A stretch of 64,000 nucleotides of DNA from Calliopum simillimum (taxonomy: Eukaryota > Arthropoda > Insecta > Diptera > Lauxaniidae), in assembly GCA_951812925.1 (NCBI GenBank), contig OX638370.1, positions 23,489,964 through 23,553,963 of the forward strand. The letters are read 5' to 3'. Every line of letters starts with the position of its first letter. Position 1 is the stretch's first letter. Positions 3,371-60,951 of this stretch are shown piece after piece. The notes beneath the pieces are model-generated. The model was not told where the DNA came from and did no database searches. It worked only from the letters and a program-made list of their open reading frames with translations. The position numbers and the translations under genes were made by a program.

Positions 3371-4969
3371 ATTGTTGTTCGGCATTAAATTAAATTTAAT
3401 TAACATTTCTATTAATAACTTATCCCAGTTATATGAATTTATAAAAAAATTGATATGCTTAAGTTTTTTTATTGTGAAGATTTTTATTGGAGGATTATGC
3501 CTTTACCGCCTCATACTACAATTTATATCAATTTTTTGTGTCGTTAATTACGATTTTATCTTATTCCACATTAATTACATTTATGTATTTTTTCTCCCAA
3601 TTTTTTTAGCTTTATTAAAATACTTTTTCTCTTATCTTCTCATCGAATTATTTTTATTCCCAAGATTTTATTTTTTTTTTTTTACTTCAATGTATCTCAT
3701 TGTTTCGTGTATCATATACACAGCATGAAAAATAAGCGCTTTGTTATAGTTTTTGCCGGTATTGTTTGATTAAATTTTGATTGTATTTATTAAAAAAAAA
3801 TTATTTTTCTCAATGTTTTCTCTGGTTTTTTTGCATAGTATTGAATTAATTGTGCACAACCATATTTCTACACAATTTTTAATTCTAAACACTACATACA
3901 AATGAATCGTACCCTATACTTGGTATAGAGAAGAGACGTACACTTTTTAAAAATTTTTGGTAGCTGAATATGAGAACTGATGAGTTTTTAATAAAGAAAT
4001 TTAGAAAATTACAGTTGTTTTTAAGAACTTCGGGGACATACTAAATATATGAAAATTTAATTTGAGAAAAAAAAACAAAAAAAAAATGTATACTGACTAA
4101 ATCTTTCTTTAAGGGCCTATTAAAGAGAACCTCGATATCGAAATCGTTATTACTGGTCTATACATAAGGAAAAGTGAAGGATGTATGATTTTAGTTACCA
4201 TTAATCAATACTAGAATAGCCCAGTGGTCAAAATTCAACCTCAAATGTATTAAATAATTTTGGTACTTTTTGGACACTTTTAATACTTTTTTATCTATTT
4301 GGTACAAAATAGAAAAGGTAATTTATCATCCCTGGTATAATTACAGCGAAATATAAACAAAACAAAATACATGAAGTCAGTGCTATGCTTTTTGCCTATT
4401 TCTTTGTGCTTTATCCTTTTTTCAGCTCTGTGACCTGTATTTTGTTGTTGTTAAAATTGAAAAATTTGTATTTAATTTTAGCTGGCTTAAAGTCAAAATA
4501 TTAACATAATTTTAACTTTGTGCATATCTACACACAAATACCTTTCTAACAGTGTATAATTTAAAGTCGTACTCTATTTCTTACATAGTTAAAAAAGATG
4601 GACAACTTTTTATTCTGCGTATTAATATATAGATTTCATGCAAAGTAGGTAGTTAAAAAAGTACACCATGGATTCTCTATCCATGATACATATGAACTTA
4701 TATTGAAAAAAAATGGTATGTAGAGTATTTTATAATTAAACATGGCCATTTATTTTCTTTATTGCTTTTACTTTACATTTGTTTATTGTCTTATTGTCTA
4801 CTCAGCAGATCATTTTTAAGTTTGATTATATCACTGGACACGATTTGAAGAGCTCAAAGTATAGTGACCTTTGATGTTGCTTACAAATGCATTAATAACT
4901 TTTAATTTTAATTTAAACATATGAGTATTACTATATATTGTAAAATTTTGCTCTGTAGTTGTAATAAGT
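3371..4969. other. AT-rich DNA, no feature recognised
   Basis: Long T and A runs create a few open frames here, but none has protein-like composition or a known motif. No tRNA or inverted repeat of note is seen. Confidence 0.4.
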
Positions 4970-4977
4970 CACTATAA

Positions 4978-5817
4978 CAGTGATTCTCAACCTATGTACC
5001 GCGGCACTTTAGTGTGCCGTGAGATTTTTAAAGTGTGCCGCGACTGCCAGAAAGCAAATATGCCGACATGATTTTTTTAGCTTTCTGGAAATTAAAAACT
5101 TTTTTTGATAATAGCATTTTACACCAATTTATATGATGTAATGATGTACAGACTACCTCCTACCACACCTTCTTTTCCTAACAAACTTCCAGGTGGTAGT
5201 ACCTAAAAGGTGTAGTTGAGCTATTTTAAATACGTTCTTTAAAATATACACAGATGGGTACAGGTACTGGATTAGGAAGTTTTTCCGAGTATATAAAACT
5301 AACAAAATCGTACAGACAGCCAAACGACTGTACTGTCTTTCACGCAGAGGTTTATGCTGTTCTCAAAGTCGCAATTTCTTGGAAGTGTTGTTATTTATTT
5401 ACATTGATAGCCAGGTGGCCATCAAAGCGATTTCATCAAATTTCATTATGAACTAGAAACTGTGACATAGAGAATCATTCATTTGTATACAAGCCATTTC
5501 TTTGGTCATTACAATTTCGAACCGCTTGGTTCGCTATCTGAATTGTGTCTTAAATCCATAAGGTAGTATATGTATGCATATGAACATGAATGTGGTTTTC
5601 CTAAAATTACTTTGTTAAAGCTCTCTGTGCCGGGGCCAATTCCGAGGCTTAAACTAATGATGACAACATGGTCATCCCACTTATTTTAACTAACTAAGCC
5701 TACATAAATCAATAAACTAACCAAAATTTTCTTAAAATTTTTTTTGTTGTTAGTGTGCCGCCAAATTTTGATATTATTAGAAATGTGCCGTGACGAAAAA
5801 AAGGTTGAGAATCACTG
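4978..5817. mobile_element. Non-autonomous hAT-type element, 840 bp
   Basis: Both ends carry the inverted repeat CAGTGATTCTCAACCT, close in form to Buster/SPIN-type hAT termini. An exact 8-bp target duplication, CACTATAA, flanks it at 4970-4977 and 5818-5825. The subterminal regions are rich in GTGTGCCG motifs on both sides. The interior carries no hAT transposase; instead it holds a degraded RNase H segment from a non-LTR retrotransposon. Confidence 0.88.
5244..5456 (+). pseudogene. RNase H fragment of a non-LTR retrotransposon
   Basis: Translation shows the three acidic landmarks of a retrotransposon RNase H: YTDG (from 5247), HAEVYAV, and YIDSQVAIKAIS near 5400-5435. They fall in different frames, so at least two frameshifts have occurred. 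Only part of the domain remains, and no reverse transcriptase precedes it. It sits wholly inside the hAT-type element at 4978-5817, so it was either captured by that element or inserted and later eroded. The clade is not certain; LOA, Jockey or I-like elements carry such domains. Confidence 0.7.
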
Positions 5818-5920
5818 CACTATAATTTTGAATTAAAGGGGATATTTTCTTTTGGCATTCAATGACCTTTTTACATACAAAAGTCTTTCAAATTTGATAT
5901 AATTTTATACTCGCATTATA

Positions 5921-6400
5921 CAGGGTGTATTGCATAAGGTTACAATACTTCTGGGAGGTGTTAGATTAGGTCTAGAAAAATAGAAATTTGCACATGGTAC
6001 GGGCCTAAAATGTACCCCTGAGAAGTTATAGGGTTTTTCTGACTTGTTTTAAATAAAATATTTTCTTGGGTCACCCTAACGTTTTAGAAAAAACTTTTTT
6101 ATGCAAATTTTTAGCTTATTATGTAAGCTCTTAAAAGTACATTTGGCTTGTAGAATTCAAAAGTATTTCGCAAAGTTCTGGGCCTTTAAAGTCGATATTT
6201 TAAAGTTTTTTCCAATTTTTTGAATTTGGCGGCCATTTTAGTATCAAAAAGGTCCTATTAACATATCCTTTTACAATTTTTTTTTTTGGAATTGTCGTTA
6301 AATTTCCTTTAACCCGGTAGTACATTTGTCATACCATTTTTTTTTTTAATTTGAGGTCTGAAAAAATGCTTTAGTTACACAGTCTTCAAAATCATGTTTT
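5921..6400. repeat. Fold-back family F1, copy A (left arm only)
   Basis: The copy starts CAGGGTGTATTGCATAAGG and shares ordered blocks with copies at 9180-10094 and 14835-16592: GGTCACCCTAACG, TTTGGCGGCCATTTTAG and AAAAGGTCCTATTAACATA. Only one arm is visible. The broken mariner follows directly. Confidence 0.65.
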
Positions 6401-12334: not shown

Positions 12335-12433
12335 ATGGCTTTGACCGTCAAATATCGTAAAACCTCGGCTGAGACGCCAGCTGTTCCTACAATTTTGGTT
12401 AAAAGTAAAGGGAATACACCACAATTAATCAAG
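12335..12433 (+). CDS. Exon 1 of the domesticated transposase gene
   Basis: It encodes residues 1-33 (MALTVKYRKT onward). The donor is AAG|GTAAAA at 12434. The context AAAGGATGG is acceptable for initiation, and an in-frame stop lies 24 bases upstream. Confidence 0.8.
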
Positions 12434-15400
12434 GTAAAAAGATTCCTTAAAAATTCTTATTGGGAAACTTGGGGGAAAGAAGTTGACTATAATAGCGTTG
12501 CCAAATCTGTACACTTTGTATGCGTAAATATAGTGTGTTGCCAGACTTGATATTTCGGGAAGAGCTTTTTATTTGGGCACAAGTCTATTATATATGAAAA
12601 CTCAATGTTTTTAATTTATAAAAAAAATTGATTTTTTTTTTAATGGAACTTTTAGTCATATATTTGCAAAGATCGATTTACATATAAATCTATCAATGCA
12701 TTTTCTAACACATAATTATGACAAATCAAGGAACGGATTAAAAACACGGCTATAGTGACATATGTTTCGTCTTTCGGCACAAAGACTCATCAGACTATTT
12801 TTGTTGTAATATAATTATATTTATTTCACTAAATTAATTATAATTAAAAAATAGCAAGTTTGTTTTTTGGCCTGGGCGGGAGTTGAACCAAGGACCTCCC
12901 GGTTGGTAGCAGAAGTTGTTACCACTGCACCAGCCTTGCCCGGCTGCGAAGCCGACTTTTGCTAGTTTTGTTTGTGTGTTAATACGTATTGATATATCAT
13001 AATTGTTTGTGTTATTTATTGATATTTGGTATAGTTGTTCCTTTGGAACAAATTCAATACCAATTGCAGGTGTTGCCACCTTATCAGGGCGTGTTCTCCC
13101 AAATAACTTTAAGAATTGTTAAGTGTGTTACTTAATGACATTTATATATTGAAATTGATTTTTTTTTTTAATTGAACTTTCAGTCATATATTTGCAAAGA
13201 TCGATTTACATATAAATCTATCAATGCATTTTCTAACACATATTTATGACAAATCAAGGAACGACTATAGCCGTGTTTTTTATCTGTTGCAAATATAAAT
13301 TCAATTAAAAAAAAATAAATTTTCAATACATAAATGTCATTAAGTAACACACTTAAAAATTCTTAAAGTTTTTAATTTATACTAACGCTAAACTGTCAGC
13401 TGTCACACAGTTTTATTTTTGGGTTGTTAACGGCTTACCGCACAAATGGCTGCAAAATTGAATCTTGCGTGAATTATCCTTATATCTCTGTAAATAAAAA
13501 TCATTGTTTATGTTTGTGCTTGGAAATGTGCGAAATCAGTCAAAAAAATTATTTAAAACTTAATTTTATGAGCATTATAACGAAACCAAAATACTGAATG
13601 TTGGTGTTGTGTTTTAAATATATCTCATTTTTGGTAACCCTAATATCCTGTTTCCACCGGAGAATTACGAGGTGATTTACGGCTGTTTTCAGATTTTTTT
13701 GACGTTTAATACATGATGAATGAGATGAGACGTGGCTCAATCACTTCACTAATCTCCGGTGCAAACAGGTTATTAGTTGAATTTTACGTAGAATATTTTC
13801 GGAGCATACTTTTAACCATTATGACTCATTTTTTGAAAAAGGTGTCAAAAATACCCATAAGAAATGTTCTGTAAAACTGTTCTTTGCGTAATTTCTTAAT
13901 AACCTTGGTGCAACAATTTTTATCCAAAGTGTAGTTTAAGAGTTTTACAGTAGGGCAATAGTGGCCACTCAGTTGTTCCAATTTATACATAGACTTTTTC
14001 AAATTTACAATTTTGTACAACACTGACAATGTTCTGTTATACGATATTTCCACTCTTTCATGTGCGTAACTCTTTTTGCATTCGCAAAATAACAATGTGT
14101 AAGAGTGACAGCCATATTACTGGAGAAGTATTAAAAGGCCAGTACACACACTCAAATATTTCAAAATTATTTGGTGAAATCGATTTTGTTTGGCATTACT
14201 AATTTTCTCATAAAAAATTTGTGGATTTAATGAGTTTTTGATAGATATAGCGTTTTCGTTTCTCAACTAAAAATTCTGCCCTCTCAAGATGCAGAATTTT
14301 TTAAATTTTGATCTGAATTCAAAAAATGTTGACCTGTTCTAGTTTACAATAGATCAAAAAAATGCTGAATTTTTCTCAATGATGAGATGTTGTTTACTTT
14401 CGAAAGACTTTCGTTCTAAAAGTCACAAGAAATTCTTAAACTTCAGTAACAAATATTGAAACGTTATGTTTATTTTTTTAATATTTTTATTTAATTAACA
14501 TATATTGCATTTAAAAGGCAATTAAAATATGTTTTTTTCTACAGTTGGCAGCAGTTGAATGCCGAATTCTTTGAACCTTCGAATTTTATGAGTCAAAAAA
14601 TTCAAAATTTTTACTTTTTGAGTGCAGCAGTTTTTTAAAAAAACAAACACGATTTATTTAACAGGTCAGAATTTTTTTTAGAAAAAATGCAAAATTTATT
14701 TGAGAAACGAAAACGCTATTAGGACGTTCCAATTATTTGCTAAAAATTTTAATTAAAACAAAAATTTTTGATTTTTTGCTGATTTGATTGATTGAAATAA
14801 TTTTGGAAAGTCCATTAAAGTTAAAATTATAAATTTTTTAACTATTTAGCATGAAAAAGGTCCTATTAACATACTTTTATAAATCTTTTTTTTTTTTAAA
14901 CATTCTTAATTTTCCATTGATTCGGTAGTACGTTTGTTATACCAATTTTTTGGATTCACTCAAAAGAGCCAATTAATTTCTGAAGAACTTTTAAAATTTT
15001 GGAGGGGAGTAATTTTATCTAAAAAATTACTGTCGTTTTTACAAAAATCAAATTTCCAAAACATATAGGGGGTTATCGTGAATCAAGATTCCCGGGGAAT
15101 TTTCTCGGACTGCCGTGCATTATCTATTGCAGTTTAAGAAAATTCCCCGGGAATCTTGATTCACGATAACCCCCATAGATTCGTTTAGTAACTTTTTGCT
15201 GACCTCAAATCAAAAAATTAGAATGAAAAATGTGCTACCAAATTAAAAGAAATTTAACGAGGTATTCAAAATAAAAAAAAAAAAAATATAGAAGGATAAA
15301 TTAATAGAATCTTTCTCATACTAAATAACCGCCAAAATCGAAAAATAAGTAAAAAATTTAAAGTTTCAACTTTAAAGACCCAGAACTTTCCTAAATTCTT

Positions 15401-18400: not shown

Positions 18401-21276
18401 TCTCCAAGACCGACATTTTTTTCAGAAGACAAAATCTCATTTTTGGCAATCATTCTTAGTGTGTTAATTTGATCCACGCACTACCAATTTCCAGCTGTTT
18501 CTGTTTAGAAGCACTGGTCTATTTTTGATGGAACTGACGACATTGTATTGGGTGTACAGCTTAAAAACCGGAATTTTTTAGAGAAATTTGATGCTTTATT
18601 GTGGAAAAATTTTACAATATATTTTATTCAAAGTATTGTCCATTGGAAGCTACAACATTTCCCCATCTTTCAGGCAATTTATGAATTCCATCCCAAAAAA
18701 ATTGCGCCGGCTTGGCGGCCAAAAATGAATCTATCCAATTTTCGATATCTTGAACTTAAGTGAAGCGTATTCCTGATAGGGCATTCTGCATCGATCGGAA
18801 CAAATGGTAGTCTGATGGTGCAAGGTCTGGGCTATAAGGCGGGTGAGGAAAAATTTGTATAGATTTCCCATCCGTTGTTTTCCAGGTAATTTTTGACTGG
18901 GGCAGCAATATGTGGCCGAGCGTTATCGTGGTGGAAAATGATTGACTCATATCTGGTCGCATACGTTGGCCGCTCTGCCTGGATTTTCTGCTTTAATTGG
19001 ATCAATTGTTGACGATAGAATTGAGCATTAATGGTTTGGCCACCTGGCAACAGCTCATAATGGATCACACCTAGCTGGTCCTGACCAGGACGTTCTTTGT
19101 CTTCGACATCAAAATAACTACTTTTAAACCACTCACGACAGCTTGATTCAGCTGGAGCATAGTCCCCATAAACTTCTACAAGAATGCGATGACTTTCGGC
19201 AGCTGTTTTCTTTGCAAAAAAATGACCCAACAGAACCTCCCGCAAATGCTGTCTTTTTCTCCAATTTTCGAAGTTATTCATCGTGAAAAATAATAATGAT
19301 GCACACAAGATAAAATTGTTTTGTTGACTGATTTTGACAGCTGTCAAATGTACCTTCAAAATGACATATATATAAAGTTCGAGCTTTCACGATATTTGTT
19401 AGTACGGACATCCACCGTCAAATTCCGGTTTTTAAGTTGTACACCCAATAATGTTTTTTTTTAGAATTGGCGACAGTCGCTAAGCCTCCTTTTTTGGTTA
19501 GCACACCATGAAGCTAAACTTTCGGCAAGCGATTGCACAATTTCCGTATTAGACAATCTTTAGTTGAACTAACTAAACTCACTCGGAAGTGTATTCATAA
19601 TTGATTTATTCATGACTGATTGATACTGATATTGTCTGCTGCAAGTCGCTAGAACACTGACAACTCAGTGACATTATCAGCATATGTCATCAGTGATTTT
19701 TTGTTAGAAAAATTCATTCATGAAGTCTTACAAATGTCTCCGTTTGTCACCCATGATTTAATTTTGTCTCTATTTGTCATCGATAAATCATCGTGAATTT
19801 TTCCACAGGGTTAAAACTGAGCAAATACATACCAACATCTGTATACAATTCTTATAATTATTTGTTTTAATTCCAGAACCTGCTTTCAAATCAGCCAAAT
19901 ATGCGCTGCAAACTATCAATAGCGCTGGCACACCGCTAACATCTTTCGATGGTAAACTATATAGCATACAACAGACTGGTGGTGGCACCACCATCACTAC
20001 AGCGTCCACAACACCCACCAATAATAATACAAAAAAAGATCAACAACAACAGATTAATGCTGCCATTGGTTCATTGCCACCAAATACAATAATACAGGCA
20101 ACAAGTGCTACTGCAGCAACTGGTGGCGGCGGTACTGTTAGCAGCGGCGGTAACACTGCAGCAACAGCAGTTCCCTTTATACAATCCAATGGCACAACAT
20201 TTAGTGCCTTAAATGCGCAAACAGGCACCACAGTACAAGTGCGACGTCCTACAATCTACATAAAACGTGAGTTGCCAAAACGTACCATACGCAGTGTGAC
20301 ATTGGAGCTCATTGAAAAGAATCCCTATATACATTTGGGTGTAGCTAGCAATCGTTTACCATTACTTAAGAATATCATATGCACTACAGCAAATGTATCG
20401 TTACTTGAGCTATATATAACGCTTAAGAAATTGCGTCAAAACGAAGATTTTGCATTATTGGCTGAATATTTTGAATTAAGCGAAAGTGAAGTGCAACAAA
20501 TATTTGCACGCAGCGTTGTGAAGTTGGCACGTTATATGCGTTTTCTAGTACGTTGGCCGGATAGTAAAAAGTACTATGATCGTCATAAAAATTTGCCATT
20601 TGCTTTTCGTTCGAAATTGTCACATGTACAGTCGCTAATTGAGTGTGTCGAAACGGAGATGCAACAGCCGATGTTACAAATCGATTGTAACAATTATAAA
20701 TTTATATTGACTATATCGACAAATGGTGAGTGGAATTTATAGAAACTTTTAATATTATGTTTTTGGCAAGATATTGAATAATTTCAAGCGTTGATATATT
20801 GAATTGTTTGTGCTGGTTTTGTTAAACTTCTTAAGACTAAAATCTTTAACTCTTCTCAAGTTATGTGGTTAAACATCACTGATCTTCTGGGAGATATTGT
20901 GGGCTAAAAATTGTGTTTTACATTGAACATAAATTACGCAATCTTAATACTAGGCGTTGCTTAGCATTGGATATTGCTTAAGTATTGAATCAATTGCTTT
21001 ATTTTGTTCAATTTGAGAATATTCTGTACGTCGTTATATCGCATAAGCCATTAAATGTTGATTCGTGCAGCACACACTTGTGAGATGACTATTGACTTGA
21101 CTTCATTGTAATACATTTTTTAAGAATACACTGTTCTACGCGTTGATTTTTATTTGGAAGAAAAAAGACATTGTAGGTATTACGTTAGCAAGATTTTTAT
21201 TTGGAAGATAATAGACATTGTAGGTATTATGTCAAAGTTTTATGGGCCGTAATTTTACATCCCACTAATTTTCTAC

Positions 21277-21307
<31 letters not shown>

Positions 21308-23815
21308 AATTTAGCTTTTAAATAGTATAGCTTATTAGTTTTAAACTTTTTCTTGATGCTAAATAGTTAACTGTCATAATTTATTTATTGTGCAACCATA
21401 CAATAGCCCCAAAGTGATCAAAATCCCTGAACAGTGCTTGTCTTCAGCGACAAAAATTTAGTACGGACCAAGTTTTAGCTACTTTTTAGCTCAAAAACTA
21501 GAAAGTTTCATGAAACAAACAGGCATGCCTTTACCGTGGTATAAAATCCCTCTTCGCTCTGTTTATTTTACAAATTTATTTTACTTCAAAAAGGTGTCTT
21601 TCAAACATAAAGACATTACTTTGAGCGGAAAAAGCTTAAAATTTTATTTTGAAGGTTTGACGCTCATTTAAGTGCAAAAATCATTTGCCGTGTCACGGTT
21701 TTACCTTTGGATATTATAAAATATCTTGAAATTTACTATAAAAAATTACATGGAATATGAAAATTATGTTTATTTTTGATTTATTCAACTATTTGCGTCC
21801 TCGGAAGAAGACTTTGTTTATAGTCAAAATTAGAATCGCTCTTATAACGAAAGCCACTAGTAGTACTGCAACTCAACCTGAAAAAGTCGTCAAATAAAGG
21901 AGTTACCGGCAACTAAAAACTAACTCTTTCAAACCAATATCAATCGATACATCTATATTGACATGTATTTTTGGAAAAAAAATTTTTCTAATTTTTGCAA
22001 ACTTGGGCGTTTTGCGTTCAATTTTATTTTCACAAAATTTATTGCTAGTGAAAAAAGGTTCATTATCAAAAAACTTATTCAGTGTTAGTGAAAAATCTTT
22101 CACTGTTAAAAAATGCATTTTTGGTAGTGAAAAGTTTTTCATTATCACTAAATTTACTTATAAATTTTCAATAAACTGTGGGGGGACTTAGGAATATTTT
22201 TCGTCCGATCTTTTTTTTTAAACATGCCAATCGATAGAGCTCTTTACTACCATCAATTTATGGTTACTGACGTTCCAAAAACCAATAGTTTTGTAGAAAA
22301 AAAAAACTGTTCTGTATTTGCTTAGGCTTTTAGATTGCTATTGCTATAAAGCTTTCAACGATTTTTCTCTGAAATCTTCAAAGGAGTAATAACTGAGTTT
22401 TTACTATATACTTATGCAATTTTTACTAAAAAACCTTTGCCTGATTTTAAGCTACGTGAGGTAATAGTTGCCGTGTTTATTACACTTGAATTAATCAGAG
22501 AGAAGAGAAAAGTTACAAAAAAATTTTTTAATTTGGTGAATCAAAAGAAATATCAAATATCGACAACTAGATCACTGGCGTATAAAAAGTTATTTAGAAA
22601 ATTATAGAAAAATGTTTGCCCACAATTTTGCAGCTTAAGAAATTTCCTATGGAAAAGTCATGAGAGTTTTTTTTCATACGACTTATAATAGTTTAAAAGA
22701 GATAATCTAGCCCTTAACTGGATTTCAAAAATTACAGTCTTCAATCATTGGCTTTGGCTAAATTTAAGCACTTTAAGCAAAGATCTGATATTTGACAGTC
22801 AATAACTGAGCTACGTAAAGACAAATGCCTCAGTGTTTGCAGAGGGACGAAAATATGGTTAAAATATGGATGATTAAAGATGACTTCAAGCCATAAGAGG
22901 AGAGCAAAAGACGATAGTTTATTTAAGTTTATGTTACCAACCAGCACTATCACCATTTTCATTGTAAAGATTTAGGTCATTGAAAAATATATCATGCTCA
23001 CACCTATGAATACGAACACAAAAAGAGTGAATTTAACACCATTTATTTGACACCTAACAATTAAAAACATCACAACAACAAAAACAGTAACAGAAATGCA
23101 CACAATCAACAGCACACTGCACAAATGACGCTACAACATCAGACGCATAGTCATATTTATTTATAGCCAAGATTGTCCAGATTTCCGAATGTTGATGCTT
23201 GAAATCTCATAATTCCAAATTTTCCAATTCAATCAAACAAAATGTTGTTGTTATCTATCTCTTTCAGGCATAATCTCATATGTTTCGGATACTTATGTTG
23301 GTCACCATGATGATCTGACAATTTTTAATGCATCAAATTTCCAGAGCGTTATTCCAAAATATCTCTCCTTAGTTGCCGATCCTGGAAAAGCTATACGACG
23401 CAAAAGGAAGCCTAAACAACAAAATAACACCACAACAAAACACGCATCAATTGAAACTGATTCTACCACTGACTCTGCTGATGAATCTGGCGATGAATTA
23501 AATGGTAGCAATTCTGATGATGATGGTGGTCATTCTTTGAGTCGGTATGCTGCATCTCGAGTAGCCGCCGAATTGGTGTCACATCAAACACTTAATGTTG
23601 TCAATAGCGAACTAACATCGCGTAAAGTGAAAGATTTTAGCATTCCGACGATGAGAGTGCGTGAGTCAGTGTGCCGTTTGCAAATACGTCATATGATATA
23701 TTGCCTGCGTGAATTTAAGATTCTACAGCCTTATGCAATCCAGGAGCCACTGCTTTATCAATATTTAAATGAGATCTTAACAGTATCAGCAGCATTGACC
23801 AATCTTCAGAGATAA
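12335..23815 (+). CDS. Domesticated DDE_Tnp_4 (Harbinger/ISL2EU-like) transposase-derived protein, 4 exons, 531 aa
   Basis: The coding exons are 12335-12433, 17723-17822, 19877-20725 and 23268-23815; phases join cleanly at GT-AG introns. Residues 1-66 form a basic tail. About 90-185 is rich in Gln, Thr, Gly and Ala. A helix-turn-helix like HTH_Tnp_4 lies near 241-292, followed by the WP..K linker. The nuclease fold follows: LIECVETE (E322 where the family has D in IIDCTE), ILTISTNGIISYVSDTYVG (D357 kept), LVADPGK at 385-390, and a C-terminal helix QIRHMIYCLREFKIL in which R490 takes the place of the usual catalytic Glu. The closing LNEILTVSAALTNL is typical of the family. A basic RRKRKPK (393-399) could act as a nuclear signal; an acidic Ser/Asp linker follows. 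No terminal inverted repeats flank it, and it has host-type introns. I infer a DNA-binding host protein that no longer cuts DNA. Its cellular role is unknown. Confidence 0.85.
12626..12756 (-). repeat. Hammerhead-bearing repeat, body of copy 1
   Basis: Read on the minus strand, this begins at the first base after the predicted ribozyme cleavage site (ACTATAGCCG at 12756) and runs to an A- and T-rich end. The inner part recurs at 13151-13263 with only scattered changes, for example around GATCGATTTACATATAAATC on the plus strand. Confidence 0.7.
12752..12798 (-). ncRNA. Hammerhead ribozyme (type I)
   Basis: All invariant core positions are present, read 5' to 3' on the minus strand. Stem I 5' strand is AUAGU (12798-12794). 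The CUGAUGA box follows (12793-12787). Stem II is GUCUUU/AAAGAC (12786-12781 and 12774-12769), closed by the loop GUGCCG. Then come GAA (12768-12766), a tiny self-complementary stem III ACAUAUGU (12765-12758) and C17 at 12757. Stem I closes with ACUAU (12756-12752). Cleavage is expected between 12757 and 12756. So short a stem III is known from retroelement and satellite hammerheads, which often act as dimers. It is antisense to the host gene, within intron 1. Activity has not been shown. Confidence 0.93.
12868..12945 (-). repeat. tRNA-like unit upstream of the hammerhead
   Basis: On the minus strand TGGTGCAGTGG (12932-12922) fits the A box and GGTTCAACTCC (12889-12879) fits the B box. The T and acceptor arms do not pair well, so it is a tRNA-derived pseudogene or SINE head, not a working tRNA. 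The ribozyme starts about 80 bases downstream on the same strand. A run of six T between them (near 12850) could stop pol III before the ribozyme. Confidence 0.6.
13103..13370. repeat. Head-to-head copies of the hammerhead-bearing repeat
   Basis: The minus-strand half (13263 down to 13103) matches the body of the copy at 12626-12738. The plus-strand half begins at 13264 with ACTATAGCCGTGTTTTTT, identical to the first bases after the predicted cleavage site of copy 1. It then has an internal deletion and continues to the shared end ATGTCATTAAGTAACACAC. Together the halves form an imperfect palindrome. Confidence 0.75.
13652..13772. repeat. Short MITE related to family M2
   Basis: The ends CCTGTTTCCACCGGAGAAT and its near complement (CTCCGGTGCAAACAGG) bound about 120 bp. 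The left part GGTGATTTACGGCTGTTT matches family M2. Confidence 0.7.
14247..14719. repeat. Inverted-repeat element, 473 bp
   Basis: The ends are ATAGCGTTTTCGTTTCTCAA and its complement TTGAGAAACGAAAACGCTAT. The arms are partly conserved inwards and rich in AAAATTCTG words. There is no coding capacity. Confidence 0.7.
15068..15174. repeat. 107-bp MITE with perfect 38-bp arms
   Basis: The ends read GGGGGTTATCGTGAATCAAG in inverted orientation, and the identity continues for 38 bases per arm. About 30 bases of loop remain. ATA on each side could be a 3-bp target duplication. The lack of arm divergence suggests recent movement. Confidence 0.8.
15701..16442 (+). mobile_element. Internally deleted mariner element, 742 bp
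   Basis: Near-perfect inverted ends start TTGGGTGTACAACTTTGCTT, flanked by the TA target duplication at 15699-15700 and 16443-16444. The element keeps the start and the end of the transposase gene but lacks the middle. It sits in fold-back copy C, within intron 1 of the domesticated gene. Confidence 0.92.
15872..16255 (+). pseudogene. mariner transposase, internally deleted
   Basis: An N-terminal start, MSVYVPNSRHLREVLLF, is read at 15872, followed by KNAAEAHRMLSE and ATERN. The reading then changes frame and jumps to the catalytic end, with HDNARPHVA (second Asp) and PPYSPDVAPSDFHLF (third Asp, 34-residue spacing class). The first catalytic Asp and most of the DNA-binding domain are deleted. 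A stop follows at LEK. It encodes no active enzyme, but the intact ends mean it could once have been mobilised in trans. Confidence 0.85.
16664..16790. repeat. Hairpin MITE, ~127 bp
   Basis: The arms AAAAAACTGCTTGAGTCGAT and ATCGACTTAAGCAGTTTTTC pair with few mismatches, continuing through GCAAAGCA. There is no coding capacity. Confidence 0.65.
17723..17822 (+). CDS. Exon 2 of the domesticated transposase gene
   Basis: It encodes residues 34-66 plus one base of codon 67 (KPIIKLDRNAGLVINK onward). The acceptor is CTTTTACAG, and the donor is CTG|GTAAAT. The region is basic, with no known domain. Confidence 0.78.
18548..19448 (-). mobile_element. Internally deleted mariner element, 901 bp
   Basis: The ends TTGGGTGTACAGCTTAAAAA and TTGGGTGTACAACTTAAAAA (inverted) are flanked by TA at 18546-18547 and 19449-19450. 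The inner part of each end differs from that of the mariner at 15701, so this is a different subfamily. It lies antisense to the host gene. Confidence 0.92.
18775..19281 (-). pseudogene. mariner transposase, deleted and frameshifted
   Basis: The start MNNFENWRKRQHLREVLLGH at 19281 leads into a good DNA-binding region (AAESHRILVEVYGDYAPAES). At KERPGQ the frame is fused straight to DQLGVIHYELLPGGQTIN, so a segment covering the second helix-turn-helix is lost and the first catalytic motif is cut at its edge. HHDNARPHIA (second Asp) follows. A frameshift near 18845-18870 then separates it from PHPPYSPDLAPSDYHLF (third Asp). It is not functional. Confidence 0.88.
19540..19810. repeat. Remnant of the 29501-30978 transposon family
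   Basis: It shares AAATGTCTCCGTTTGTCAC, TTGTCTCTATTTGTCATCGAT and CACTCGGAAGTG with the left part of 29501-30978, in inverted orientation. The terminal ACCCGGTGGCG is not preserved. Confidence 0.65.
19877..20725 (+). CDS. Exon 3 of the domesticated transposase gene
   Basis: It encodes residues 67-349. It holds the low-complexity Gln/Thr/Gly/Ala stretch, the helix-turn-helix and the start of the nuclease fold with E322. The donor is ATG|GTGAGT. Confidence 0.85.
20726..23267 (+). other. Intron 3, 2542 bp
   Basis: Bounded by GTGAGT and ATCTCTTTCAG. It contains a run of about 27 A near 21279-21306 and a loose repeat of AGTGAAAAA words near 22040-22145. No gene or clear transposon is recognised. 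Confidence 0.7.
23268..23815 (+). CDS. Exon 4 (last) of the domesticated transposase gene
   Basis: It encodes residues 350-531 and the TAA stop. It carries D357, the RRKRKPK stretch, the acidic Ser/Asp linker and the C-terminal helix with R490 in place of the expected Glu. Confidence 0.85.
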
Positions 23816-45716: not shown

Positions 45717-45788
45717 TAGCAGAGCAAGGTTTCGATCCTCGGACCTCTGGGTTATGGGCCCAGCACGCTTCCACTGCGCCACTCTGCT
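45717..45788 (-). tRNA. tRNA-Met (CAT), elongator
   Basis: Acceptor AGCAGAG/CTCTGCT, D arm GGCGCAGTGGAAGCG, anticodon arm CTGGG-CCCATAA-CCCAG and T arm CGAGGATCGAAACCTTG all pair. A run of T follows on the minus strand. Sequence and arms equal those of the copy at 49998-50069. It is elongator-type rather than initiator. Confidence 0.96.
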
Positions 45789-46325
45789 TGTAACGTGTAG
45801 TTGTCAAATACGCAATTTAACCCAGCGCAACCAACGCGTCTCGTTTAACACTTTGGTATCGTTGTGAAATAAACTGGTACACATGATTGACAGCTTGATG
45901 AAATATGTACTGGAAATTGCTAAATTTTTGTAATCGAAGCAACTTTTTAGATATTTGAAATACAAAACGTGAACTCACGAATTCTATAGTTAGAACAAAA
46001 GATTTTTTTTTTTATGGACAACTCTCGATTAATGCGAATAAGCACCGTGGCATGCAAAAACTTAAATCCATCTGAAGTCCCTCCTACTGTTAAGCTCTAG
46101 TACTGTCTAGACGAAAACGGCAGGCTCATAGATCTCTACTCAAGCATCCGACAATTATTTTTTACAATTTTGGAATGGTAATCAGGCTAAAAGCACAACG
46201 TTTGTTTTTGGAAAAATGTACTTCTTTTAATACTTTCTTAGTTTTAAGATAAATAATATTCTAACCTTTATAGTCTGATTCAATACCTTTCCAAAACTGG
46301 ACAGAACTTTGAAACCGGTTAAGAA
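45789..46325. other. Intergenic DNA, nothing recognised
   Basis: No coding or structural signal is seen between the tRNA-Met and the Mutator-like element. Confidence 0.35.
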
Positions 46326-49652: not shown

Positions 49653-49997
49653 GGTATACTTTAATTTAAATCTTGCGTGAATTATGGGACACATTTGTAA
49701 CTACTTTAAATATTTAAAATAACCTTTTTTAACACAGAATTTCTCGATAATGGATAAATAAATAAAATAAAAAAAATCCACTTCACAGAAACTCTTTTTT
49801 TTTTTTTATGTGTTGTTAATATTTAAATGTTTATACTAAAGTCTGTTTTATTTTTAATGGATTCCAACGCATGGAAAATGCTTTGAGCTCATACATACAT
49901 CAATGTTTTCAACCCCTAAATACCATTAAGTGTTAAGCAACTTTGGTTGTTGTTTTCATTGTGCTTAAGTAACGCATTCAGCGCTCACTGCACAACA

Positions 49998-50069
49998 AGC
50001 AGAGTGGCGCAGTGGAAGCGTGCTGGGCCCATAACCCAGAGGTCCGAGGATCGAAACCTTGCTCTGCTA
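49998..50069 (+). tRNA. tRNA-Met (CAT), elongator
   Basis: It is identical in mature sequence to the minus-strand gene at 45717-45788, with anticodon CAT in the loop CCCATAA and all stems intact. A run of ten T follows within 12 bases. The two copies are in opposite orientation. Confidence 0.96.
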
Positions 50070-50309
50070 TGAGTGTGAAATTTTTTTTTTCAAATTAATT
50101 TTTTTTTTTTATTAAAGACAAAAATGTCGTTAAATATCAAAACTGCCTTAGTTCCGCTCTGATATGTAGGTAACATAAAATAAATTTAATTAAATTGATT
50201 TTAAATTATATTAGCTTTGTTTGACGAATTTAGATCATGCTGCTGGTGACATCTAGTGTGCAAATTGCGACCTGATTTTAAAATTGTCATTATATACGTC
50301 GAATATAAC

Positions 50310-50381
50310 GGGGATGTAGCTCAGTGGTAGAGCGTTCGCTTTGCATGTGAAAGGCCCCGGGTTCGATCCCCGGCATCTCCA
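50310..50381 (+). tRNA. tRNA-Ala (TGC)
   Basis: Acceptor GGGGATG/CATCTCC (one G-T pair), D arm TAGCTCAGTGGTAGAGC, an anticodon arm with loop TTTGCAT (anticodon TGC) and T arm CCGGGTTCGATCCCCGG all form. The discriminator is A. T-rich termination follows at 50384. Confidence 0.96.
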
Positions 50382-50473
50382 AGTTTTTTTTTAATTTTTC
50401 AGTAGTAGGTTCAATCTGGAGACTACAGCCGTTGAAAAATATTTGAAAACTAGATATCGTTATGTATGCACAT

Positions 50474-52618: not shown

Positions 52619-53554
52619 GTGGCTGGCTGGCTGGCTGTGTGTTGAAATACACTTTTTGGGAAAACTGAGCAAGATAATTCAATGAAATTTGGTACACTGC
52701 CTCCGTCGTCAAAGTTAGCTCGGGGGATTGAAAATGAGCAAAATCGGTCAACGGACACGCCTACCGCCCATACAAAAATTATATTCAAAATGCAATTTTA
52801 GGAGTATTTTTCACGACAATGCAACCACAATACATATAAGTACTACGAATTGTAAGCGCAAGCTCTGATAAAAATTTGAGCGAATTCGGACGAGAGGGCG
52901 TGGCACCTCCTATATAAGCAAAAGCTTCAAAACGCTATACTGAAAGCGTTTTTTGAGATATTCGAACCAAATTTGACTCAGACACTAAGAATCATAAATG
53001 AAAGCTTTCAACAAAAATTGGGTGAAATCGGACCAAGGGGCGTGGCACCTCCCATATGAGCAAAAGTTTCAAAATGCTATACTGAAAGAGTTTTTTGAGA
53101 TAATCCAACCAAACTTTCAAATACTAAAGACTAAAAATGCGCGCTCTAAGCTAAAACTAGAAGAACTCGGACGAGAGGGCGTGGCACCTCCTATATAAGC
53201 AAAAGCTTCAAAACGCTATACTGAAAGCGTTTTTTGAGATATTCGAACCAAATTTGACTCAGACACTAAGAATTATAAATGAAAGCTCTCAGCAAAAATT
53301 GGGTGAAATCAGACAAGGGGGCGTGGCACCTCCCATATAAGCAAAAGATTCAAAATGCTATACTGAAAGAGTTTTTTGAGATAATCCAACTAAATTTCAC
53401 TCTGACACTAAAAACTATAAATGCAAGCTCTGAACAAAAACTGGGTGTACTCGGACAAGAGGGCGTGGCACCTCCCATATAAGCAAAATTTTCAAAATAC
53501 TGCAGTGTAGGGTATTTAGTTTTTGGCCAGGCCAAAATTTACACCCTTACTAGT
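52424..53554 (+). repeat. mini-me-like repeat with expanded (GGCT)n and 141-bp tandem array
   Basis: It starts TATACCCTACACCCAGGGTA, has the core GAGTCGATATAGCCATGTCC, then GTCTGTCT leading into (GGCT)n at 52561-52637. The second half is a tandem array of five ~141-bp units, each holding GGGCGTGGCACCTCC (starting at 52896, 53038, 53179, 53319 and 53461). It ends TTTACACCCTTACTAG. The same start, core and end occur at 60009-60786. mini-me elements of Diptera have this microsatellite-seeding layout. Confidence 0.75.
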
Positions 53555-53808
53555 TTAATTTAATTTGGTCATATCTTTTGAACCGTATAAGATATTTTGA
53601 TGAAAATTGGTACACAACTCCTGACTATCAATGTTTTGTGGGCAAAAACTGGGCGAAATCGGGAAAGTGCCACGGTCACTTTTTAACCATTGAAAATTTT
53701 GATATTTTGATTTAAATATTACCAGCCAATTCTCTTCGACCCGCGTTAACATTACTTTCTGAATATCGCAACATATTGGACTGCATCCTTAGTACCTTCA
53801 TTTCGGTG

Positions 53809-53971: not shown

Positions 53972-54192
53972 ATGCAAAAATTTAATGGAAAATTTTTAAT
54001 GCCAAAACCATAATGCACATTAATGGAATAAGAAAGATCATAGCAAACAAAGAGAAGCAAAAAAGTCCAGTTATTGCTTTGTAATTAAGAGGTATGTGCA
54101 TATATACATTAACGTAGATATCGTTCTTAAGTATTTTTTAACGGCTGTGGTCTCCTGATTGAACCTACTACTGAAAAATTCAAAAAAAAACT

Positions 54193-54264
54193 TGGAGATG
54201 CCGGGGATCGAACCCGGGGCCTTTCACATGCAAAGCGAACGCTCTACCACTGAGCTACATCCCC
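54193..54264 (-). tRNA. tRNA-Ala (TGC)
   Basis: It has the same mature sequence as the gene at 50310-50381, in opposite orientation. All stems and anticodon TGC are intact. Flanking DNA on both sides is also shared with that copy, so the two arose by duplication of a larger block. Confidence 0.96.
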
Positions 54265-54339
54265 GTTATATTTGCCGTATATAATGACAATTTTAAAATT
54301 AATTCGCAATTTGCACACCAGATGTCACATGCGCAATTT

Positions 54340-55889: not shown

Positions 55890-57733
55890 TAGAGCGCCCA
55901 TATGTGCGTAATTCTGATTTTGCTTGCTCCCCGTCCATTTCCTGAAATTAGAGGTCAAAAAAATAAGATCTCAATAAAAAATTTGGAATCGGTAATGGAA
56001 AAAACCCAGCCGATTTTCGATCAAAGGTCGAAAAATTGACTAAAAAAAGGCAAGTCGCTTTGACTGCTCGTTACTTCAAAACTACTGATTTTTTCAAAAT
56101 ATTTTCAAGACAACTTTTGTAGAGCATGACTAGGTCAACATTATCTTCTTAAAAGTTTTCGTCCAAAAATTAAATTTGTTGCTGTTTCGGTACAAAAATT
56201 TAAATTTTTTAAGAAAATTTTCATGACTTTTTTTCTATAAATTGGTTTTTTGTAATTATTAAAGGGTGGAATATTTGTTGTGGAATTCTTATGTTGCAGG
56301 GAATTAATGTTGATTAATTTGAAAGAAGAATTATTAAAAAATATTAGTTTTTGAGAAATGGAGCCCGTTTCAAAGTTAAGAAAAAAAATTTATTTTTTTA
56401 TTTTTTTTTTCTTAGTTTTTAATTTGGTAAGTAACCATTTCGGTAGTCATATTTTCTAAACTAATTTGGGATCGCTGAACACGAAAGTAGCATTTATTTT
56501 CGTTTTAGTGAGTTTTTGGGCTGTTCCAGCAGAGATAATCGAAAATTTGAAACTTCGTGCACGTAGCCCAGAAAAATATTTAAATCAAGTTGTCGTGAAA
56601 TGCACAAAGATTTGAAATTCACGCGAGCATTTACTGAATATGAAAAAAGTTTTCAAAATCGGTTCATGGCATGGTTCATGGTCGAAAAACGGTATTTTAA
56701 AAAAACGACTACAAACCATAACCAAAATAGTCATTTTAGATGTATTTATTAATACTGAATTCGAAATTGGACGCGAAATTGCTGTATCACTTATGGTTTG
56801 TGAGATATTTCACCTCTAATGTTCAAAAAACACGATTTTTGAGGTTGTGTAGAACACGTAAAAAATTGTTTTGGTCTTTTCTATTAAATGCGTCATTTAG
56901 TACAGTTCTTCTTCTTTAAAATGAGTTACAGAATGGTCTTGTATGATTTTTCTTTAAAAAGTTATGACCATTTCAAAATAACATTATAAAAGATATAGTA
57001 ATATGGCAATTGCTATAGAGAATCCACACGTGATTTTTTAACTTTCATGGTGTAATTTTAAAATGGTCATAACTTTTTGAAAAAAAGTCGCTCAAACCCA
57101 TTTTATAGCTCATTTTGAAGGAAAAAAGCAGTTCTAAATGATGCATTTAATCACAACTAGCAATGCATTCTCTTGCATCCCATAAAGTATCGATTAAAAG
57201 AAAAAAATTAAAATACTTATTTTTTTCCAACATTGAGACCGGCTCCATACCTTAAAACTTAATATTTTTAAATTATTTTTTTTTTTGTTGAATTAATCAA
57301 CATTTAATCTCCTGCAATATAAGAATTCCAGAACATATAATCCTCCCTTTTATAATTACAAAAAACCAATTTATAGAAAAAAAGTCATGAAAATTTTCTT
57401 AAAAAATTTAAATTTTTGTACCGAAACAGCAACAAATTTAATTTTTGGACCAAAACTTTTAAGAAGATAATGTTGACCTAGTCATGCTTTACAAAAGTTG
57501 TCTTGACAATATTTTGAAAAAATCAATAGTTTTGAAGTAACGGGCAGTCAAAGCGACTTGTCTTTTTTTAGTTAATTTTTCGGCCTTTGATCGAAAACCG
57601 GCTGGGATTTTTCCACTACCGATTCCAAATCTTTTATTGAGATCTTATTTTTTTGACCTCTAATTTCAGGAAATGGACGGGGAGCAAACAAATTCACAAC
57701 TTTGCACATTTCATATATCTTGTGGGCGCTCTA
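55890..57733. mobile_element. 1844-bp palindromic element with 8-bp target duplication
   Basis: The ends are TAGAGCGCCCA and its complement. The exact flank ATCTATAT occurs at 55882-55889 and 57734-57741. The arms stay similar almost to the centre near 56810, including GGAAATGGACGGGGAGCAA and TAATGTTGACCTAGTCATGC blocks. No transposase is left. An 8-bp duplication and TAGAG end resemble the hAT-like MITE at 50474. Confidence 0.85.
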
Positions 57734-59939: not shown

Positions 59940-60951
59940 AGAAACCAATGCGGTTAAGTCCAAAAAATATTAATTGAGAAAATTTGAGTTTTCAAATATT
60001 TTTGTTTTTATACCCTACACCCAGGGTATATTCACTTTGTCCTTCCGTTTGTAACGCAGAGAAGGAAGCGAGGCAGATATGGAAAAGTATATATATTCTT
60101 GATCAGCGTCACCTCCTGAGTCGATATAGCCATGTCCGCCTGTCTGGCTGGCTGGCTGGGTGGCTGGCTGGCTGGGTAACGGGTGTGTGTGGATATACAT
60201 TTTTTGGGAAAACTAAGCAAGATAATTCAATGAAATTTGGAACACAGCCTCCGTCGTCAAAGTTAGCTCGGGGGATTGAAAATGAGCGAAATCGGTCAAC
60301 GGACACGCCTACCGCCCATACAAAAAATATCTTCAAAATGCAAATTTTGGAGTATTTCACAACAATGCAATCAAAATACACATAAATACTACGAATTGTC
60401 AGCGCAAGCTCTGAGAAAAAGCTGGTCGAATTCGAACAAGAGGGCGTGGTACCTCTCATATAAGCAAAAGCTTCAAAACGCTGTACTGAAAGCGTTTTTT
60501 GAGATAATCAAACTAGATTTGACTCGGACACTAAAAACTATAAATGCAAGCTTTAAGCTAAAACTGGGTAAAATCGGACAAGAGGGCGTGGCAAAAGCTT
60601 CAAAACGCTATTTTAAGATAATCCAACCAAATTTCACTTAAATACTAAGAACTATAAATGCAAACTCTGGGAAAAAACTGGGTGAATTTGTAGGGCGTGG
60701 CACCTCCCATATTAGCAAAATTTTCAAAATACTGCTGTGTAGGGTATTAAATGTTTGGCCAGGCCAAAGGTTACACCCTTACTAGTTAAAATTCTTCTGA
60801 AATTATATTACAAAATATTCAGAGGCTATTTAAAAAAAGGGCTGTTTGACCTAAAAAAAATTAAGGAAACGAATAAATCCTTTAATAACTGAGAGGAATA
60901 TTATTTATTCCACTATGGTATGTAAAAAATTTACTTAACCGCATTGGCTTC
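59940..60951. repeat. Inverted-repeat element carrying a mini-me-like copy
   Basis: AAACCAATGCGGTTAAGTCC on the left pairs with ACTTAACCGCATTGGCTT on the right. The mini-me-like repeat at 60009-60786 takes up most of the interior, so it appears to have inserted into this element. Confidence 0.6.
60009..60786 (+). repeat. mini-me-like repeat, second plus-strand copy
   Basis: It has the same start, core and end as 52424-53554, but the (GGCT) run is short and broken by GGGT. The GGGCGTGGCACC tandem part has fewer, partly deleted units (near 60441, 60584 and 60695). Confidence 0.75.

Follow-up and report, generated by a model that had tools for sequence, protein, structure and literature searches.

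The insertion described here is one copy of a non-autonomous family with 2,559 motif matches in its own genome, and the copy was likely made by a Penelope-type enzyme that primes on both strands of a cut target. We put the probability of this reading at roughly two in three. Double-sided target-primed reverse transcription is inferred from the division of the outer ends between two sites, E1 and E2, together with the Penelope-like anatomy of the insertions, the likeness of the two arms within an insertion and the small number of junctions at which both arms meet at the same position. The copy lies in a window of 64,000 nucleotides, the whole stretch of DNA that was analysed, and the element is larger and far more numerous than this window alone suggested. 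As the first-pass annotation had stated, the repeat has no reverse transcriptase of its own: the insertion (12621-13367) contains neither a reverse transcriptase nor a GIY-YIG gene. For this reason it is best called a Penelope-type but non-autonomous element with tRNA-like boxes and a predicted Pol III promoter.

Hammerhead motif, insertion and genomic family

On the minus strand the motif begins with ATAGT as 5' strand of stem I (12798-12794) and the core CTGATGA (12793-12787). Stem II follows with GTCTTT (12786-12781), the loop GTGCCG (12780-12775) and AAAGAC (12774-12769). GAA (12768-12766), ACATATGT (12765-12758), C 12757 and ACTAT (12756-12752) complete the motif. The arrangement is that of type I, with a CUGANGA and GAA core, surrounding stems I-III, H17 and stem I at the open end. 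The first-pass annotation had described the hammerhead as type I and complete, its stem III as short and self-complementary, and all pairs, core positions and coordinates that it claimed check out; the likeness to hammerheads of Penelope-type elements that it had pointed out is supported as well. Cleavage is predicted between C 12757 and A 12756, and a dimer is predicted to be necessary for the self-complementary stem III of only eight bases.

A structural descriptor of core plus stems finds one site in the window versus two sites in 400 dinucleotide shuffles of the window. In the centroid fold, stems I and II form and stem III does not. The folding energy is what the base composition would lead one to expect, with shuffles folding equally well (z -0.23). 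In the covariance search with the Rfam hammerhead models that had been suggested as a check, no model reaches its gathering score anywhere in the 64 kb, perhaps because stem III is so short, and at E<=10 the best hit within 12400-13100 is Hammerhead_3 with 25.2 bits against a gathering score of 48.5 and with a wrong stem. In a further copy (L038), the Rfam type I model aligns one copy of the motif correctly, with 21.5 bits where 34 are needed.

Table 1. Parts of the insertion and its flanks, in window positions
Feature	Position	Strand	Evidence or remark
Type I hammerhead ribozyme motif	12752..12798	minus	core and stems by sequence; 2,559 genome matches; four-row covariation
Stem III ACATATGT, self-complementary	12758..12765	minus	sequence; absent from centroid fold
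A-box-like TGGTGCAGTGG	12922..12932	minus	43 nt before B box
B-box-like GGTTCAACTCC, one mismatch to GGTTCGANTCC	12879..12889	minus	perfect form GGTTCGACTCC in L038 and L044
TTTTTT between B box and hammerhead, possible Pol III stop in the window copy	12846..12851	minus	
Target-site duplication, low-coordinate copy, TATAAATTAAAAAC on minus strand	12607..12620		exact 14-nt match to 13368-13381
Target-site duplication, high-coordinate copy, TATAAATTAAAAAC at 13381-13368 on minus strand	13368..13381		exact match
Whole insertion between duplications	12621..13367	minus	arm, tail copy 1, leader, boxes, hammerhead, tail copy 2
Tail copy 2, running from the predicted cleavage site as far as E1 (near unit position 141)	12621..12756	minus	
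Tail copy 1, tandem partner of tail copy 2, starts at unit position 22	13102..13263	minus	
Inverted arm, unit position 1 (predicted cleavage point) to E2	13264..13367	plus	

Everything between the two 14-bp duplications is read as one insertion (Table 1). Stretches of at least 14 nt are shared by random window pairs in 5 of up to 3000 draws. The repeat had been delimited to 12626-12800; these boundaries are replaced by 12621-13367, the stretch between the target-site duplications, and the unit is larger than had been thought and includes the A and B boxes. The two tail copies of the window are 92% identical over 119 nt and lie 528 bp apart, and the inverted arm is missing its middle piece (unit about 26-103). 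The sole ORF of at least 70 aa wholly inside the insertion encodes 94 aa at 12834-13118 and has no Pfam match.

The A box TGGTGCAGTGG with a B box 43 nt further on is present in 9 of the 12 loci scanned; in the remaining three (L040, L042, L045) the arms end before they reach the A box at unit position 357. The pair arises in none of 4000 shuffles of the insertion; over the whole window on both strands, 200 shuffles give 5 such pairs and the real sequence has 4. One locus, L037, is a single unit with an 11-nt duplication; it extends from 29 nt upstream of the A box to E2, and judging by this position its start could be where a Pol III transcript begins. Since the box region is not recognised as a tRNA by a tRNA model or by ARAGORN, and since in the window copy a run of six T lies between the boxes and the hammerhead, use of the promoter is a prediction.

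The genome-wide search that the first-pass annotation had proposed reveals a large family. The pattern CTGATGAGTC-N12-GACGAAACATATG with at most three mismatches has 1284 matches on the plus and 1275 on the minus strand of the 690,472,685 bases (334 contigs) of the same genome, and the reversed pattern, searched in the same way with at most three mismatches, has none. Among the matches listed, all of which lie on one contig (C1), clusters within 1.5 kb counted by eye are divergent in 11 cases, same-strand in 3 and convergent in 0. A 200-kb genome sample (L015-L034) yields one match at an edge, beside a place already listed in the C1 search, and viral contigs give no match to the hammerhead motif or to the tail. 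In tandem copies the unit measures about 545-568 bp (L035, L036, L038), with 545 nt in L036. In L035, three tandem hammerheads lie within one duplication, which means that this array most simply came in one event; its neighbouring units are 98.7-99.2% identical.

The same genome also contains a second, unrelated hammerhead, at 3462-3506 of locus L009 and on the minus strand near 3573 of locus L010. It consists of CTGATGA, a stem II of GTCCT and AGGAC and a self-complementary 8-base stem III AAACGTTT, and the 1.6-kb repeat around it is 97% identical between the two loci. Beside it, at 4594-6131, L010 has reverse-transcriptase-like ORFs with the motifs FDISNMYPSMD and WWKYIDDFFMY, recognised by eye, and no Pfam match. 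As a candidate for an autonomous partner, the ORF at 4594-5853 was rejected, with no Pfam match and no homolog at E<=0.001.

The intronic position antisense to a host gene that the first-pass annotation had given for the repeat is putative; the nearest host-like coding stretch to the insertion that was found lies on the plus strand near 20200. The plus-strand ORFs at 20200-23812 give weak matches to HTH_Tnp_4 and DDE_Tnp_4, a protein in a public collection shares 95% identity, and by sequence this is perhaps a domesticated transposase gene. Further along, the window has an inverted repeat of 406 nt that is 94% complementary with its halves 996 nt apart (55902-56307 and 57304-57709), repeats spaced by about 142 bp that recur after 7 kb (52685-53561 and 60373-60793), and two inverted duplicate pairs of tRNA genes, tRNA-Met with 100% complementarity (45717-45791 and 49995-50069) and tRNA-Ala with 95% (50246-50399 and 54175-54328).

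Two-armed insertions and their outer ends

Twenty-four loci were compared, namely the window copy (W) and 23 further copies (L035-L057), all of them picked for carrying the motif. Thirteen loci (L035-L047) were chosen with preference for paired or tandem matches and ten (L048-L057) from single matches. Two arms placed head to head with their 3' ends outward are found in 18 of the 24 (W, L035, L036, L038, L039, L040-L049, L053, L055 and L056), and in 5 of 10 if the single-match loci are taken alone. Five loci are one-armed (L037, L050, L051, L052, L057), and L054 is ambiguous.

The tail 3' of the predicted cleavage point has two preferred outer ends, E1 at unit 124-145 and E2 at unit 168-183. 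All two-armed loci except one (17 of 18) end at E1 on one side and at E2 on the other, where the E2 ends of L035 and L038, which run into an A-rich stretch, were judged by eye. The exception is L049 with ends at E2 and unit 97. If each side chose its end freely, mixed pairs in 17 of 17 loci would have a P of 7.6e-6, with loci taken as independent and L049 omitted. The inner junctions are variable. L048 has a second arm of unit 69-124 followed by an A run and a hairpin-like junction at which the arms meet at unit 61 and 69; in each of the other 17 two-armed loci the unit positions at which the two arms meet are more than 15 nt apart.

Target-site duplications of at least 11 nt flank 21 of the 24 loci (W, L035-L049, L051, L052, L053, L055, L056), although the one in L056 is doubtful, being of low complexity and 30 nt outside the mapped arm, that in L052 is of low complexity too, and the lengths sometimes include bases common to the element's own end. 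L057 has a duplication of 9 nt, and L050 and L054 have none of at least 8 nt. By chance, pairs of random 90-nt windows share at least 11 nt in 30 and at least 13 nt in 7 of up to 3000 cases.

Between the arms of a single insertion, 26 of 2525 positions differ, against 1286 of 49959 between arms from different loci. Among the loci with at least 40 shared positions, 11 of 12 fall below their own between-loci median difference; the window copy is the exception, with differences between its own arms at 6 of 50 positions. Arms are thus more alike within an insertion than between loci, which fits the copying of the same or sister RNAs.

Ribozyme conservation and mode of insertion

An old copy of the hammerhead is present at 897-944 of L054, in a stretch that is 68% identical to the unit. 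Its core reads CTGAAGA and is followed by one extra base, stem II is whole and stem I has four pairs. The covariation alignment is made of only four rows, the window copy, L038, L054 and a copy from L035 with decayed core. In these rows 94.2% of 52 cells are paired and four pairs have changed on both sides, compared with 32-58% paired in slid versions. Shuffles reach the paired share in 2 of 500, the double changes in 11 of 500 and the number of further pair types in 138 of 500. The 12 free bases of stem II and its loop carry, by eye and among the matches listed, 9 loop versus 4 stem changes, a distribution that does not show clear constraint; GTGGCG is the common form of the loop. Twelve of 100 copies listed (out of 168 matches) read CATACTTATGTC or CATAAGTATGTC; from the part that is displayed, which leaves out the upstream core, stem III seems to be lengthened in them from 8 to 12 bases that are still complementary.

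The insertion breakpoints hint weakly at cleavage. The inverted arm of the window copy starts exactly with the first base 3' of the predicted cleavage site and an arm of L056 one base later. Over 17 loci, with L048 omitted, 2 of 34 inner arm ends lie at most 2 nt from this point (P 0.039 if uniform), a number so small that templates appear mostly not to be trimmed there. The same count led us to drop the inversion boundary 13264/12756 as proof of cleavage. Many arms run straight through the hammerhead, which implies that many templates were uncut or rejoined at this position. Among the 100 matches listed, out of 168, 15 lack a hammerhead match just upstream. One of these carries a point mutation and another an internal deletion, so that 13 begin at unit position 1, for which no enrichment is claimed; a further 8 match at one upstream base and 8 at two. 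For the anole Penelope element PAc, RNA reads neither begin nor end at the hammerhead site (PMC11167929).

In the mechanism that we propose, the A and B boxes would start Pol III transcription and the transcripts would span one or more units. The multimeric RNA would be trimmed by the hammerhead, probably as a dimer held by the palindromic stem III. A Penelope-type protein would make a staggered cut in the target, each target 3' end would prime reverse transcription at a different internal site of the RNA (E1 or E2), and the two cDNAs would be joined at their meeting point. The tail may serve as a module for protein binding and priming, like the start of the reading frame in PAc. By analogy, E1 and E2 look like the pair of reverse transcription start sites of this element: in vitro, both strands of the target are cleaved by the PAc protein and then extended, reverse transcription starts inside the RNA, the genomic tail corresponds to the stretch between two start sites, and no difference between the strands was seen (PMC11167929). 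A rotifer Penelope element is described as having an inverted pLTR, a 31-bp tail that may be present at one end, and a duplication that encloses the entire structure (PMC3846280). Taken further, the family may be a Pol III-driven Penelope satellite in which two primers are behind each full insertion, the strands prime at fixed E1 and E2 sites and the templates are paired via stem III, so that inverted Penelope copies would be the normal outcome of double-sided priming. This wider proposal is tentative, and we would sooner doubt it than rely on it.

Other routes to an inverted insertion were considered. Snap-back self-priming of a single cDNA or antisense RNA, as proposed for rotifer Penelope elements, would produce inverted arms, and in these elements the head-to-head arrangement is usual and junction palindromes are seen (PMC3846280). 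Both L048, with arms meeting at unit 61 and 69, and the junction at C1:33153742, which reads as a hairpin, look as expected for such an event. However, only 1 of 18 two-armed loci has arms that meet at roughly equal unit positions, which is evidence against a general role of snap-back, and self-priming leaves unexplained why one side ends at E1 and the opposite side at E2, so we give it a slim chance. A foldback or MITE-type DNA transposon with inverted repeats that enclose a hammerhead by chance would account for inverted arms and target-site duplications, but its outer ends should not differ by the E1-E2 stretch as they do in 17 of 18 two-armed loci; with variable arm lengths and junctions, three tandem hammerheads in L035 and the existence of one-armed copies, we regard this origin as highly improbable. 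An ordinary metazoan retrozyme would have its hammerhead-trimmed circular RNA reverse transcribed repeatedly around the circle by an enzyme of LINE or Penelope origin, and the tandem cDNA would be inserted. The tandem copies of L035, L036 and L038, in which the unit recurs every 545-568 bp or so between one pair of duplications, speak for it. This cycle was proposed by Cervera and de la Pena, with Penelope elements named as a strong candidate (PMC7229834). Copying of a circle alone gives no two-armed and inverted form, as seen in 18 of 24 copies, and the unit of 545 nt in L036 is above the reported 150-450 bp (PMC7229834). We consider the retrozyme route improbable as it stands; a circular RNA could still be the template, and to this extent it overlaps with double-sided priming.

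A different question is whether the hammerhead takes part at all, or is an inherited relic without present role in an element that moves without it. Hammerhead mutants of PAc insert as well as wild type in vitro (PMC11167929), the change rates of stem and loop are similar by eye among the young copies listed, and the junction excess at the predicted cleavage point is only weak, all of which agree with a relic. On the other hand, the old L054 copy keeps core and stems through double-sided changes, some of the copies listed appear with a lengthened and still complementary stem III, and a second, unrelated hammerhead of the same layout occurs in the same genome. We judge a relic to be unlikely, while leaving it an appreciable share of the probability.

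Comparison with known systems

The insertion mode of Penelope elements, the origin of their inverted copies with optional tail and the purpose of the hammerhead can be approached by counting in a family this numerous, since whole genomes can be scored for the E1/E2 rule, for the junctions and for how many breakpoints fall at the cleavage site. Among the titles and openings of abstracts searched, in a collection with few subscription papers, none combines A/B boxes with a hammerhead and with Penelope ends.

The family shares A and B boxes at tRNA spacing with tRNA-derived SINEs, and L037 resembles them as a copy from boxes to E2 with an 11-nt duplication. In contrast to such SINEs, there is no recognisable tRNA fold, a hammerhead is present and the insertions are tandem and inverted. 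The SINE-like SMalpha elements of Schistosoma carry a Pol III promoter. Compared by description, they are likewise short non-coding retroelements with a type I hammerhead, and a two-armed insertion structure is undescribed in the available part of that report (PMC8490949). Metazoan non-LTR retrozymes have in common with this family AT-rich non-coding tandem repeats, type I hammerheads and a proposed mobilisation by Penelope elements, whereas the unit described here is larger (about 545-568 bp) and has A/B boxes, inverted two-armed insertions and two defined ends.

The likeness to Penelope-like elements (Penelope/Poseidon; D. virilis, Adineta vaga, anole PAc) extends over the whole anatomy. Both have tandem or partial-tandem hammerhead units (pLTRs), a head-to-head inverted copy with one duplication around the whole, an optional tail at one outer end, here in 17 of 18 two-armed loci, and a priming site 3' of the hammerhead. 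The AT-rich targets of PAc are matched by AT-rich duplications in this family. Duplications of A. vaga Penelope elements measure 8-9 bp compared with 11-18 nt here (PMC3846280). The single ORF for reverse transcriptase and GIY-YIG is theirs and is missing from this unit, which is thus not an autonomous Penelope-like element. What sets this family apart beyond that are the tRNA-like A/B boxes and the counted pairing of E1 with E2, and a tRNA-like promoter would join the parts that such parasites borrow.
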